A stretch of 32,904 nucleotides of DNA, taken from contig DUPY01000010.1 in the NCBI GenBank assembly GCA_012838065.1, forward strand, positions 1 to 32,904, given 5' to 3'. Of the stretch, positions 7,247-32,543 are shown in pieces. This DNA comes from Acholeplasma sp. GTDB lineage: Bacteria; Bacillota_I; Bacilli_A; Acholeplasmatales; Acholeplasmataceae. Below the pieces are notes generated by a model. The model had not been told where the DNA came from, ran no database searches, and saw only the letters and a program-made list of their open reading frames with translations. Both the position numbers and the translations under genes were made by a program. Each line of letters opens with the position of its first letter. The stretch's first letter is position 1.

Positions 7247-7275
7247 TTTACAAACGTAGGAATAACACATATAAT
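7247..7275 (+). promoter_or_regulatory. Strong promoter of the serS T-box leader
   Basis: TTTACA (7247-7252) and TATAAT (7270-7275) are separated by 17 bp, a near-consensus housekeeping sigma factor promoter. Transcription would start near 7282, exactly where T-box stem I begins. Confidence 0.85.
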
Positions 7276-7281
7276 AAGTAT

Positions 7282-7478
7282 GTATAAGAAAGACAAGTAA
7301 TTTAAAGTGCTTTTTCAAAGAGAGTTTGTGGGTGGTGTAAACAAACATAAAGACTTTAAACGAATCTACTTTATTGGTTTGTACCCTTATACATATAATA
7401 AGAGCTAGGGGAACCTAGAACTAAGGTGGCACCGCGAATGATTCGCCCTTAGACATTTTTGTCTAAGGGCTATTTTTA
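7282..7478 (+). promoter_or_regulatory. Serine-specific T-box riboswitch leader
   Basis: A complete T-box leader that senses uncharged tRNA-Ser. Stem I is closed by GTATAAG (7282-7288) and CTTATAC (7386-7392). Inside it, GAATCTAC carries UCU (7365-7367) followed by A, the likely serine specifier codon. A CTAGG/CCTAG stem follows (7405-7418). The hallmark AAGGTGGCACCGCG is at 7423-7436; its UGGCACC bulge would bind the tRNA acceptor end. It folds into an antiterminator with the GCG/CGC and AAGG/CCTT arms up to 7450. The competing terminator is listed separately. Uncharged tRNA-Ser should favour read-through into serS. Confidence 0.93.
7445..7478 (+). terminator. T-box-controlled terminator before serS
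   Basis: GCCCTTAGAC (7445-7454) and GTCTAAGGGC (7461-7470) form a perfect 10-bp stem followed by TATTTTTA. The 5' arm overlaps the antiterminator, so the two are mutually exclusive. Confidence 0.93.
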
Positions 7479-7498: not shown

Positions 7499-8773
7499 AT
7501 GCTAGATTTAAAATATGTCGTTGAAAACGTCGAAGAAGTTATAAATAAGTTAAGTAATCGTAATGGTGATTTTACGTATTTAAGAAAGTTAGTCACTTTA
7601 GCGAATGAAAGAAAAGAAGTTATCGCTAATGTTGAACTAAAGAAAAATTTAAGAAACGAAGCATCTAAGAAAATTGGCCAATATAAACGTGAAGGTAAAG
7701 ATGTTACGCCAATTATGAATGAAGTCGCTGGTATTGGTGATGAAATTAAAGTACTTGATGAAAGATTGCTAGCAATTGAAACTGAAATTAATGGCATTCT
7801 AGCAATTACACCAAATATACCAAATGAAACTGTACCTGTTGGAAAAGACGAAGATGCAAATGTTGTTATTCGTCATTGGGGTAGGCCACGTACATTTGAT
7901 TTTCCAGTTAAAGACCATATTCAATTAGGTGAAGCTTTAAACATTTTAGATTTTGAACGTGCAGCAAAAATAACTGGTGCTCGTTTTGTTGTAGATAAAG
8001 GTTTAGGTGCAAGACTAGAGCGTTCGCTCATTCAATTTATGATGGATACACATGGTATTGAAAATGATTATATTGAATGTATTCCACCATTTATCGTAAG
8101 TGATAAGAGTATGTATGCAACAGGACAATTTCCTAAATTTAAAGAAGACAGCTTCCGCTTAGCAAATACCGAAGGCTGGTATTTAAACCCGACAGCTGAG
8201 GTACCGACAATTAATCTATATCGAGATGAAATTATTGATGGCGCGATACTGCCACTTAAATTTGTATCTTATACAACTGCATTTAGATCTGAAGCGGGCT
8301 CTGCTGGACGGGATACAAGAGGTATATTAAGACAACATCAATTTAACAAAGTTGAATTGATTAAGTTTACTAAACCAGAAGAATCATACGATGAACTAGA
8401 AAAAATGTTAAAAGATAGTGAATCAATTTTACAAAAATTAAATATTCCATATCGTGTTGTTGCCTTATCTACTGGAGATCTTGGATTTTCTATGGCGAAA
8501 ACATACGATATCGAAGTATGGTTGCCAGGCCAAAATACGTATCGTGAAATTGGTTCAATTAGTAATGCTGAAGATTATCAAGCGCGTCGTGGTAATATTC
8601 GTTTCAAACGTGATAAAAACGCTAAAACAGAATATGTACATACATTAAATGGTAGTGGGCTTGCTGTTGGTCGCACAATGATTGCAGTTATTGAAAACTA
8701 TCAAAATGCTGATGGAACAATAACTGTGCCTGAAGCGCTACGTCCGTACATGAAAGTTGATGTCATTAAATAG
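7499..8773 (+). CDS. serS: Serine--tRNA ligase
   Basis: SerRS charges tRNA-Ser with serine using ATP, and is a class II synthetase. The 424-residue length is normal. Residues ~25-105 form the long antiparallel coiled-coil arm that binds the tRNA (charged, with KEVIANVELKKNLRNEASKK). The catalytic core has LNPTAEVPT, motif 2 around residue 262 (FRSEAGSAGRDTRG) and motif 3 around 383-395 (LNGSGLAVGRTM). The start ATG 7499 has AAGGAG at 7486-7491 with ideal spacing. The preceding T-box independently supports the serine assignment. It is transcribed alone; the downstream GGDEF gene has its own -10 box. Confidence 0.98.
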   Translation: MLDLKYVVENVEEVINKLSNRNGDFTYLRKLVTLANERKEVIANVELKKNLRNEASKKIGQYKREGKDVTPIMNEVAGIGDEIKVLDERLLAIETEINGILAITPNIPNETVPVGKDEDANVVIRHWGRPRTFDFPVKDHIQLGEALNILDFERAAKITGARFVVDKGLGARLERSLIQFMMDTHGIENDYIECIPPFIVSDKSMYATGQFPKFKEDSFRLANTEGWYLNPTAEVPTINLYRDEIIDGAILPLKFVSYTTAFRSEAGSAGRDTRGILRQHQFNKVELIKFTKPEESYDELEKMLKDSESILQKLNIPYRVVALSTGDLGFSMAKTYDIEVWLPGQNTYREIGSISNAEDYQARRGNIRFKRDKNAKTEYVHTLNGSGLAVGRTMIAVIENYQNADGTITVPEALRPYMKVDVIK

Positions 8774-28964: not shown

Positions 28965-28986
28965 ACGAAATTTTTACAATTCGCCC

Positions 28987-29015
28987 TTTACAATAAATAA
29001 CTTTATTGTTATAAT
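28987..29015 (+). promoter_or_regulatory. Strong promoter with palindromic spacer before riboswitch
   Basis: TTTACA (28987-28992) and TATAAT (29010-29015) are 17 bp apart, with an extended TG at 29007-29008. ACAATAAA (28990-28997) and TTTATTGT (29002-29009) are perfect inverted repeats around TAAC and fill the spacer. TTTACAAT also occurs as a direct repeat at 28973 and 28987. A repressor could bind here. Confidence 0.8.
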
Positions 29016-29172
29016 GGGTTTGTATTTAAGTATCGTATATGTTGTCAAATTGGTGGCAACGTCTCTACCATAGTTCCGTAAAAACTATGACTACGCATAT
29101 TTAAACATGTAGGGGTTGTTTATTTATCCACGTAGCTTCCGCATACTTTAAATACAAAAATTTTAGGGGAAA

Positions 29173-29196
29173 CATGGGGATAAGTAGCACTTATTA
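29173..29196 (+). other. Possible seven-codon leader peptide
   Basis: ATGGGG at 29174 opens a short frame, MGISSTY then TAA, preceded by AGGGGAAAC. It sits in the platform of the purine leader. Whether it is translated is unknown. Confidence 0.2.
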
Positions 29197-29211
29197 ATGA
29201 TGTTTCTAGGT

Positions 29212-29238
29212 AAAACACCTATAAAAGGTGTTTTTTTT
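29212..29238 (+). terminator. Terminator of the purine-riboswitch leader
   Basis: AAAACACCT (29212-29220) pairs with AGGTGTTTT (29226-29234), with T8 after the stem. An alternative hairpin TAGGT (29207-29211)/ACCTA (29217-29221) uses the same 5' arm, so the two exclude each other. Confidence 0.85.
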
Positions 29239-29291
29239 AGCGATTTTTTGGTAAAATGAGTGATAGAAAATAAAAAAGGAGTCTAGATGAT

Positions 29292-29828
29292 ATGAATATT
29301 TGGCATGATATAGACCAGAAACGCATAACACCAGATAGTTTTATTGCGGTCATTGAAATATCAAAAGGTAGTAAAAAGAAATACGAGTTAGATAAAGAAA
29401 CAGGGATGATTATTTTAGATCGAGTTTTGTTCACATCAACTCACTATCCTGCAAACTATGGATTTATTCCAAAAACTTATGCAGGTGATAATGACCCACT
29501 AGACGTCTTGGTATTATGTCAAGAAGATATTGAACCTATGAGCCTTGTAACATGCTTTCCAATCGGTGTTATGAAGATGATTGACTCAGATGAAGTGGAC
29601 GAAAAAATAATTGCCGTTCCATTTGGTGATCCATCACATAACCAATACAAGGATATTAGCGAACTGCCACAACATATCATTACAGAAATGGGGCACTTTT
29701 TTGAGATTTATAAGTCATTAGAAGGAAAAAAAACATACATATTAGATGTTGAGGGAAGAGAATCTGCAAAGAGAATTATTCAACAGTCTATTAAAAACTA
29801 TCAGAAAGTATTTGCAAAGAAGGATTAA
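29292..29828 (+). CDS. ppa: Inorganic pyrophosphatase, family I
   Basis: Ppa hydrolyses pyrophosphate to two phosphates, pulling biosynthetic reactions forward. The 178-residue protein is a soluble family I enzyme with the signature DNDPLD (Asp66, Asp68, Asp71), HYPANYGFIP, and a C-terminal conserved EIYKSLEGKK. AAGGAG lies ten bases before ATG 29292. A guanine-type riboswitch and terminator precede it, which would make pyrophosphatase synthesis respond to purines; this is inferred from position only, since a weak TAAAAT at 29252-29257 might be a separate promoter. yebC follows two bases after the stop. Confidence 0.97.
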   Translation: MNIWHDIDQKRITPDSFIAVIEISKGSKKKYELDKETGMIILDRVLFTSTHYPANYGFIPKTYAGDNDPLDVLVLCQEDIEPMSLVTCFPIGVMKMIDSDEVDEKIIAVPFGDPSHNQYKDISELPQHIITEMGHFFEIYKSLEGKKTYILDVEGRESAKRIIQQSIKNYQKVFAKKD

Positions 29829-29830
29829 TT

Positions 29831-30550
29831 ATGGGAAGAGCGTTTGAAGTAAGAAAAGCAGCGATGGCAAAAACATCTGCTGCAAAAAGTAAAGTATATT
29901 CTAAATATGGTAGAGAAATCTACTTAGCAGCTAAATCAGGTGTAGCTGATCCTGAAATCAACGTGAACTTAAAACGTATGATAGAAAAAGCTAAAAAAGA
30001 TCAAGTACCAGCAGATGTTATTAAACGTGCAATTGAAAAAGCTAAAGGCGGCGTTGAAGATAACTTAACAAGTGTACGATACGAAGGTTTTGGACCTGAA
30101 GGCAGCATGTTTATCGTTGAATGTTTAACAGACAACGTTAATAGAACAGTATCTGAAGTTCGAAACTGTTTTACAAAAACTGGTGGAAAACTAGGTGTAT
30201 CCGGTTCTGTACTTCACCAATTTAACCATCAAGCGATCTTTGCTGTTTCAAACAAAACAGAAGATGAAATTTTTGAAGTTTTAGTTTTAAACGACATTAA
30301 TGTAAGTGACATCGAAAGCGATGAAGATGGTGTCTCTATTTATGGTGAGGCACAAGATTTTAATTCAATTAAAACTGCTTTATTAGATGCAATGCCAGAT
30401 ATCGAGTTCGAAACTGATGAAATTATGTGGGTTCCAATTACCGAGGTTAAGTTAACTCAAGAGGAAAGTTTTAAAGCTTTTGAAAAATTACAAAACATGC
30501 TTGATGAGCTTGATGATGTTCAAGATATCTATCATAATATCATCGAATAA
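29831..30550 (+). CDS. yebC: YebC/PmpR-family transcriptional or translational regulator
   Basis: A 239-residue protein of the YebC/TACO1 family. The start MGRAFEVRKAAMAKTSAAKS and the conserved region with NVNLKRMIEKAKKDQVP, and YEGFGPEGSMFIVE, are diagnostic. The members studied act as DNA-binding regulators or help ribosomes at difficult peptide motifs such as polyproline. Which applies here is not visible. The gene is only two bases after ppa and shares its transcript; no ribosome binding site is obvious, so coupling is likely. A strong terminator follows after ~50 bases. Confidence 0.93.
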   Translation: MGRAFEVRKAAMAKTSAAKSKVYSKYGREIYLAAKSGVADPEINVNLKRMIEKAKKDQVPADVIKRAIEKAKGGVEDNLTSVRYEGFGPEGSMFIVECLTDNVNRTVSEVRNCFTKTGGKLGVSGSVLHQFNHQAIFAVSNKTEDEIFEVLVLNDINVSDIESDEDGVSIYGEAQDFNSIKTALLDAMPDIEFETDEIMWVPITEVKLTQEESFKAFEKLQNMLDELDDVQDIYHNIIE

Positions 30551-30696: not shown

Positions 30697-31947
30697 ATGA
30701 TTTTTTCATTGAACGATAAAGAAATTAAAGAAATAATTGCGAAAGAAGCAAGGAGGCAACAAGCAGGCGTAGAGCTAATTGCCTCTGAAAATTTTGTTTC
30801 AGAAGAAGTCCTACAAATTCAAGGCTCAATTCTTACAAACAAATATGCTGAAGGCTATCCTGGCAACCGCTATTATGGTGGTTGTGAGTTTGTTGATGAA
30901 GTTGAGCGTCTTGCAATCAAATATGTATGTGAATTATTTGATGTAAGGTTTGCTAACGTACAACCACATTCTGGTTCACAGGCAAATATGGCAGCTATGC
31001 AAGCTTTACTTAAACCTGGTGATAAAATATTAGGTATGTCTTTAAACGAGGGCGGCCATTTAACGCATGGGTTTAATTTAAGTTTTTCAGGAATCGTCTA
31101 TGACAGTTATTTTTATGGTGTCGATGAAAAAACAGAAATGATTAATTATGACCACGTGCTTGAAATTGCTAAAGAAGTTAAACCAAAACTTATTATCGTT
31201 GGTGCAAGTTCATATTCTAGAGCCATTGATTACAGTCGCTTTAGAAAAATTGCTGATGAAGTTGGCGCTTACCTTATGGCAGATATTGCACATGTTGCTG
31301 GTTTAATTGCTGCAAAACTTCACCCGTCTCCTGTTGGTTATGCCGATGTTATTACATCAACTACGCATAAAACATTAAGAGGACCACGGGGTGGATTGAT
31401 TTTAACAAACGATGAAAACATAGCTAAGAAAATCGACAAGGCGGTCTTCCCTGGAATACAAGGTGGGCCGTTGATGCATGTTATTGGTGCGAAAGCACGT
31501 GCGTTCAAAGAGGCACTTTCACCATACTTTGTTAAATATCAGGAACAAGTTATTGAAAACGCCAAAACAATGGCAAACCACTTTAAAACATTGGGTTATC
31601 GTGTCATAAGTGGTGGAACAGATAACCATTTATTATTATTAGATGTCAAACAAAAATTTAACATAACCGGAAAACAAGCCGAAACAATATTAGGAAATGT
31701 CAATATAACAATTAACAAAAACAGTTTACCGTTTGATCAAGAAAAACCAATGCATACAAGTGGTATACGTATTGGTACACCGGCAGTAACAACACGGGGT
31801 TTGGTTCAAAAAGATATGATTGAAATTGCCAACTGGATTGACAAAGCTCTACAAAATAGAGAAAACAATGATGTCTTAAACGAAATCAAACAGCAGGTAG
31901 AATTAAAAATGGAAAAATATCCATTGCATAAAGGAGGCATACTATGA
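30697..31947 (+). CDS. glyA: Serine hydroxymethyltransferase
   Basis: GlyA transfers the serine hydroxymethyl group to THF, giving glycine and methylene-THF, with PLP. The 416-residue length is typical. [24 protein letters not shown] and [10 protein letters not shown] match the N-terminal part, and the PLP Lys225 is in [14 protein letters not shown]. One common change is [10 protein letters not shown] in place of the usual GxSAYxRxID. GAGGTG at 30684-30689 fixes ATG 30697; ATG 30693 is in another frame. Its product or substrate methylene-THF is made by FolD, 1.7 kb upstream. Its end overlaps the next gene by ATGA, with AAGGAGG inside the glyA 3' end. Confidence 0.97.
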
Positions 31948-32543
31948 TTACAAAAACGCGAAATATTCCAGATGGAAAAGCCCTTTTAAAGACTTTACCA
32001 TATGAACCATACTTAGAAGCTGAAAGACTATATTATCCAATTACAAGTGGTAGATGTCCTGAGGGAAGTGCATCGGTTAAAGTTGGAGAAAAAGTTTATG
32101 TAGGTCAAATTATCGGGGCACGTAGATCTGGCTTTTTCGATCAAAATATCCACTCTACAGTGAGTGGAACAGTTGTTGGTTTTGAAATGCGTACACTTTC
32201 AAGTGGCAAAAAAGTCGAATGTATTGTTGTTGTTGGCCTACTTTCAGGCAGACTTTTAGGGCCAACATTTTATATGGGAACTGCAGGTGCGATTGCATCA
32301 CTAATTGTTATGGGCACATTAAAACAATTAAAAGTGTTTGGTATGACTTTGGTAAGTCTTATAGGCTCAATTAGTCATCAAATTGGACAAATTGTTGCCG
32401 GTATCTTTGTTATTGGTGCCACAGAAGTCTTTTATTACTTACCGATTATGTTACCAATTGGTGTTGTATCCGGTATTATTATTGGTTTAATTGCTGAAAA
32501 ATTTATGGTTACAATGAAAAACAACGAAAGAACAATCGAATAA
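31944..32543 (+). CDS. Chimeric protein: RnfC N-terminus fused to Gx-transporter C-terminus
   Basis: A 199-residue protein made of two unrelated parts. Residues 1-~97 match the RnfC barrel-sandwich domain at the start of Rnf[40 protein letters not shown] and GKKVECIVV. RnfC is normally ~430 residues with 4Fe-4S and NAD/FMN-binding parts, all absent here. From ~98 it matches the C-terminal half of Gx-transporter/heptaprenyl-diphosphate-synthase component I proteins: [30 protein letters not shown] and GLIAEKF, with two or three hydrophobic helices. The complete Gx protein is ~170 residues. An in-frame deletion between neighbouring genes of an Rnf-like cluster explains this best; activity is doubtful. 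ATGA overlap with glyA ensures translation. A terminator follows. Confidence 0.8.

Follow-up and report, generated by a model that had tools for sequence, protein, structure and literature searches.

A guanine-class aptamer and a predicted strand exchange in a conserved RNA upstream of the pyrophosphatase gene of Acholeplasmataceae

The window, i.e. the whole stretch of 32,904 nucleotides of Acholeplasma sp. DNA that was analyzed, contains the gene for an inorganic pyrophosphatase, ppa. It is followed by yebC, with which ppa is probably co-transcribed; glyA lies downstream of yebC. The features of this locus are listed in Table 1. The region before ppa contains two putative promoters, and between them an intrinsic terminator, which is located exactly where the earlier note had placed it. 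Transcription from the distal promoter is predicted to start near 29022, and the same -35/-10 pair is also kept before the RNA in relatives. The ppa-proximal promoter is of the extended -10 type. Mapped promoters of Mollicutes have the -10 sequence TAWAAT, an EXT element and a 6-nt spacer (PMC5138195). In A. laidlawii a factor of the YebC/PmpR family is predicted to control ppa (PMC5138195).

The extended -10 sequence TGNTANAAT occurs shortly before the start of ppa in 26 of the 27 loci that have the RNA described below and in 20 of 23 loci without it. Because this conserved promoter lies after the terminator, expression of ppa does not have to rely on the leader. Many relatives without the RNA also have a similar terminator before ppa; the terminator may therefore have begun as an insulator. 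A short leader ORF that would begin at GGGG-TTG was considered and dismissed, since by eye neither its frame nor its length is kept between species.

Two other features of the window are recorded here. A T-box leader at 7274-7453 (98.8 bits) precedes an ORF at 7499 that resembles a seryl-tRNA synthetase, an ordinary arrangement. An ORF at 31944-32543 fuses an RnfC_N domain with a heptaprenyl diphosphate synthase component I domain; this fusion is unusual.

Table 1. Features of the ppa locus in the window, with the observation on which each is based.
Feature	Position	Strand	Basis or remark
Distal promoter	28987..29015	+	TTTACA 28987-28992, 17 nt, TATAAT 29010-29015, TG before -10; 11/12 consensus matches (such matches are common by chance)
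Guanine-type purine aptamer	29013..29114	+	RF00167, 62.8 bits, cut-off 37
5' strand GTATTTAAGTATCGTA	29022..29037	+	pairs with P1 3' strand (P1, extended P1) or with 29140-29155 (P0ext)
P1	29030-29037 with 29092-29100	+	RF00167 aptamer match
P2/L2	29041-29060	+	L2 ends GG at 29052-29053
J2/3 GUCUCUACC	about 29061-29069	+	RF00167 alignment; near-canonical
P3/L3	29069-29089	+	L3 is CCGUAAA, 29076-29082
J3/1	29090-29091	+	C at 29091, guanine-specifying position
Anti-P1 hairpin	29091..29135	+	CTACG 29091-29095 with CGTAG 29131-29135, inner stem; consensus fold
L4 GGGGTT, loop of anti-P1 hairpin	29112-29117	+	consensus fold
P0ext 3' strand CGCATACTTTAAATAC	29140..29155	+	fold, strand-swap test
P5 hairpin	29168..29207	+	conserved GGGGATAAGTAGCA at 29176-29189; fold, conserved columns
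Intrinsic terminator	29212..29238	+	AAAACACCT-ATAAA-AGGTGTTTT plus T run; predicted in both folds
ppa-proximal extended -10 promoter TGGTAAAAT	29249..29257	+	TGNTANAAT in 46/50 ppa loci of relatives
ppa, inorganic pyrophosphatase	29292..29828	+	PF00719, 203 bits, E 2.4e-60
yebC	29831..30550	+	PF01709 and PF20772; 2-nt gap after ppa

A search of the whole window, on both strands and with 4227 Rfam families, matched the plus strand at 29013-29114 to RF00167 over the full length of the model, with 62.8 bits against a gathering score of 37 (E 7.5e-9). This result bears out the claim that the leader contains all core elements of a purine aptamer. The assignment to the guanine type is likewise upheld: C 29091 in J3/1 and U 29066 in J2/3, which we take to be position 51 in the xpt numbering, together place the pocket in the guanine class; L3 has the sequence CCGUAAA; and the contact between L2 and L3 is present as GG 29052-29053 with CC 29076-29077. 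The deviations pointed out in the earlier note fared differently. L2 is indeed one base shorter than in the RF00167 model. Other purine aptamers of Acholeplasmataceae also have the C in J2/3 and a U as third base of J1/2; both are therefore features of the clade and not signs of a new ligand.

A changed ligand class was ruled out, the pocket being of the guanine type. In 2'-deoxyguanosine riboswitches U51 of J2/3, the sugar-facing position, is replaced; this class was discarded because U is kept at 29066. The xanthine-II and guanine-II variants have insertions in J2-3, and xanthine-II also in J3-1 (PMC9295807); they do not apply because J2/3 and J3/1 of the window align to RF00167 without insertion. 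In tandem guanine-PRPP riboswitches the guanine aptamer is followed by a PRPP aptamer of the ykkC type (PMC5912903), and no such aptamer follows here. No further Rfam riboswitch was found after the aptamer, even at E 10, in the leader of the window or in that of the relative L066. Judged by its sequence, then, a real guanine-class aptamer lies directly before ppa in the window. The same genome has one further purine aptamer and no others; it is found on another contig (C37:21625-21726) before a permease gene (PF00860).

Separate searches for the aptamer and for ppa, combined with a reading of the regions upstream of ppa, yielded a set of 27 loci, namely the window and 26 relatives from the Acholeplasmataceae. 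In all of them an RNA of ~210 nt around the aptamer sits between folD and ppa. Carriers of the RNA include a cultured relative, the organism of CP017948.1, and Peloplasma aerotolerans, whose copy has one change in J2/3. The aptamer exceeds the Rfam cut-off in 18 of the 20 ppa loci of relatives tested, and the gene order fhs-folD-RNA-ppa-yebC-glyA is constant wherever the locus is long enough. A model of the post-aptamer part alone (R1, 107 positions) matched 22 of the 160 genomes of the order strongly (E < 1e-9), each of them once, and all 22 matches are situated just upstream of ppa; matches near E 0.01 were treated as noise. R1 had no strong match outside the family among 395 genomes sampled from the class. 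As read from these genomes, the association of aptamer and ppa is not a one-off. The earlier note had taken ppa to be the first gene controlled by the aptamer. The position before ppa is conserved in relatives; control is less certain, with a terminator in between and a conserved promoter of its own in front of ppa.

In most ppa-type aptamers (L065-L073, L075, L077, L078 and others) L3 has 5 nt (CCAAA, CCTAA), with the CC that faces L2 kept, in contrast to the 7 nt of the xpt type of RF00167; L3 of the window is canonical. In a genome from another family of the order (G045, locus L012) a purine aptamer precedes an ORF that by eye resembles fhs.

The segment 29021-29240 folds 4.1 sd better than its dinucleotide shuffles. 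The consensus fold, calculated from 21 sequences, differs from that of the aptamer but retains P2 and P3. In this fold the 5' strand, consisting of GUAUUUAA and the 5' strand of P1, pairs ~100 nt downstream to form P0ext, and the 3' strand of P1 pairs with an anti-P1 strand in a hairpin whose loop, L4, has a conserved GGGG. In the structural models the fold with P1 (fold 1) and the fold with P0ext and anti-P1 (fold 2) are mutually exclusive, and the RNA seems able to flip between them. In the calculations without ligand fold 2 is favored by roughly 1 to 10 kcal/mol, and by 6 in the window.

Strands were swapped between species, with permutations that ignore relatedness and hence give optimistic p values. 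P0ext is matched within species (native mean -12.6, swapped -10.0 kcal/mol, p<5e-5), and so is anti-P1 (p 0.0016). Extended P1, in which P1 continues into the 5' strand, gave p 0.013, while the value for P1 itself (p 0.22) is uninformative because P1 is nearly invariant. Pair counts agree with the swap tests for the whole structures; the anti-P1 helix itself is nearly invariant in these counts, with 97% of cells paired in 18 sequences. In the aligned sequences the P0ext and anti-P1 helices of fold 2 covary. Further downstream follows P5, which carries GGGGAUARGUAGCAUC. No Rfam relative of P5 or of the second half of the RNA was found with the leaders of the window and of L066. From its conservation pattern, the RNA is more than an aptamer, in that its second half is a conserved structure absent from Rfam.

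The ppa RNA shares the three-way junction, the J2/3 core UCUACC, the C in J3/1 and the GG/CC contact with the xpt type of guanine riboswitch (RF00167). It differs from this type in its association with ppa, in having no terminator directly after the aptamer and a second promoter after the terminator, in the extra P0ext strand exchange, L4 and P5, and in a predicted response that is ON and not OFF. The guanine riboswitches before permease genes of the family (C37 of the same genome; L006-L034) have a similar aptamer, an anti-P1 hairpin and a closing helix in which the 5' end pairs with a strand further on. In these leaders the terminator comes right after anti-P1 and the closing strand lies beyond it, just before the ribosome site, whereas in the ppa RNA the closing strand and P5 precede the sole terminator. 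In the permease leaders (L001, L006-L034) the 5' strand before P1 is complementary to the strand between terminator and ribosome site, and strand swaps separate native from swapped closing helices (mean -11.3 and -7.7 kcal/mol, p<5e-5). In the modeled structures the closing helix of the read-through mRNA would also unwind P1, and perhaps it serves as a latch or protects the 5' end.

With abundant guanine, guanine riboswitches commonly reduce expression (PMC9295807), and the anti-P1 hairpin of the ppa RNA resembles that of the family's permease leaders. This would suit an OFF switch on ppa, in which binding favors termination by a mechanism outside secondary-structure calculations. We consider this quite improbable: the ppa RNA has no counterpart of the terminator that comes right after anti-P1 in those leaders, and the occupancy calculated below for the terminator arm runs in the opposite direction.

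The reading that we tentatively put forward, at somewhat less than an even chance, is that the ~210-nt leader upstream of ppa contains a guanine riboswitch with strand exchange, which guanine turns on via antitermination. Guanine would stabilize P1, and with P1 formed the 3' strand of P1 would be kept out of the anti-P1 hairpin. The freed GGGGUUGUUU strand could then pair in fold 1 with the emerging 5' arm of the terminator, and more polymerases from the strong distal promoter would read into ppa-yebC. Without guanine the anti-P1/P0ext fold would sequester the GGGGUUGU strand and transcription would stop, with basal expression of ppa coming from the proximal promoter. Guanine would thereby raise pyrophosphatase, which would fit the removal of pyrophosphate from guanine salvage with PRPP. 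The direction of the response is a prediction of the folding models: it follows from the GGGGUUGU strand being free for the terminator 5' arm in fold 1 and hidden in fold 2. A similar logic is found in the adenine ON switch of the pbuE type, where bound P1 prevents termination. The ppa RNA differs in its ligand base, C and not U, and in the proposed use of a separate antiterminator strand, whereas in pbuE the terminator itself invades P1.

In calculations on transcripts ending just before the terminator 3' arm and with P1 imposed, the 5' arm pairs with the L4 region at a mean probability of 0.77, compared with 0.50 when L4 is shuffled (Wilcoxon p 0.0004). In the anti-P1 fold the 5' arm is mostly free (0.74 vs 0.33), and the near-zero pairing of L4 with the arm in this fold is partly due to the program's ban on pseudoknots. 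The complete terminator is predicted to form stably in both folds; zero values for L065, L068, L088 and L038 stem from misaligned columns, and the structures of L065 show the hairpin. Antitermination by simple equilibrium pairing was rejected on these grounds, and antitermination would have to be kinetic. Matching of L4 to the terminator arm is not significantly species-specific (p 0.11, strand swaps). The promoter of ppa itself, and the loss of the pocket in some relatives that keep the RNA, are points against the ON switch.

Two such relatives fail the Rfam cut-off. In L079 P1 is broken and J2/3 reads GUAUUUAUC; L083 has no J2/3. J2/3 is altered in L082 and L074. The retention of the RNA in L079 and L083 is the best reason to assume a role besides guanine sensing, and it lends weight to a rather unlikely alternative: that the locus produces a separately transcribed, terminated RNA of ~215 nt, derived from a riboswitch, with ppa merely its neighbor. 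Such an RNA would be gated by guanine in most species and would act through the anti-P1/P0ext fold and the G-rich L4 and P5 on RNA or protein. It would have its own near-consensus promoter and a terminator that is predicted to be stable in every state, after which the ppa promoter is located. L079 and L083 keep P0ext, anti-P1 and the GGGG elements without a pocket, and P5 is conserved though no role in a switch can be named for it. Against this stands the finding that no strong-scoring copy occurs away from ppa in the 160 genomes of the order and the 395 of the class, a weak counter-argument since the synteny is fixed.

A related proposal, which we judge unlikely, is that a guanine riboswitch became a guanine-gated structured RNA with the unbound fold as its working form, and that the pocket then decayed in some lineages to leave an independent noncoding RNA with conserved G-rich elements. 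Listeria SreA/SreB and Rli55 are terminated RNAs derived from riboswitches. Like them, the ppa RNA is a terminated riboswitch transcript that may have a function in its own right; it differs in that the unbound fold, and not the bound one, is conserved in lineages without the pocket. It is very improbable that the RNA is a relic without a present role that outlasted a permease gene once located before ppa. Of the relatives that lack the RNA, some (L098, L099, L109, L111) do have, by eye, an NCS2-type permease-like gene upstream of ppa, but promoter, pocket, P0ext, anti-P1, L4 and P5 have been retained in several genera, with compensatory changes.

A full-text search of open-licence papers found none that connects a purine riboswitch with ppa, though a passing entry in a survey table is possible; the paper on guanine variants (PMC9295807) mentions neither Acholeplasma nor a pyrophosphatase gene. 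While the aptamer class is known, the gene association, the architecture and the predicted direction are new. If guanine controls ppa, purine salvage would be tied to the removal of pyrophosphate by RNA alone, for which we found no report, and a guanine ON switch would be unusual. If instead the RNA acts alone, it would be a natural example of the conversion of a riboswitch into a noncoding RNA, with the stages visible in living relatives. Either way, the conserved second half with L4 and P5 is an unexplained RNA structure outside Rfam.
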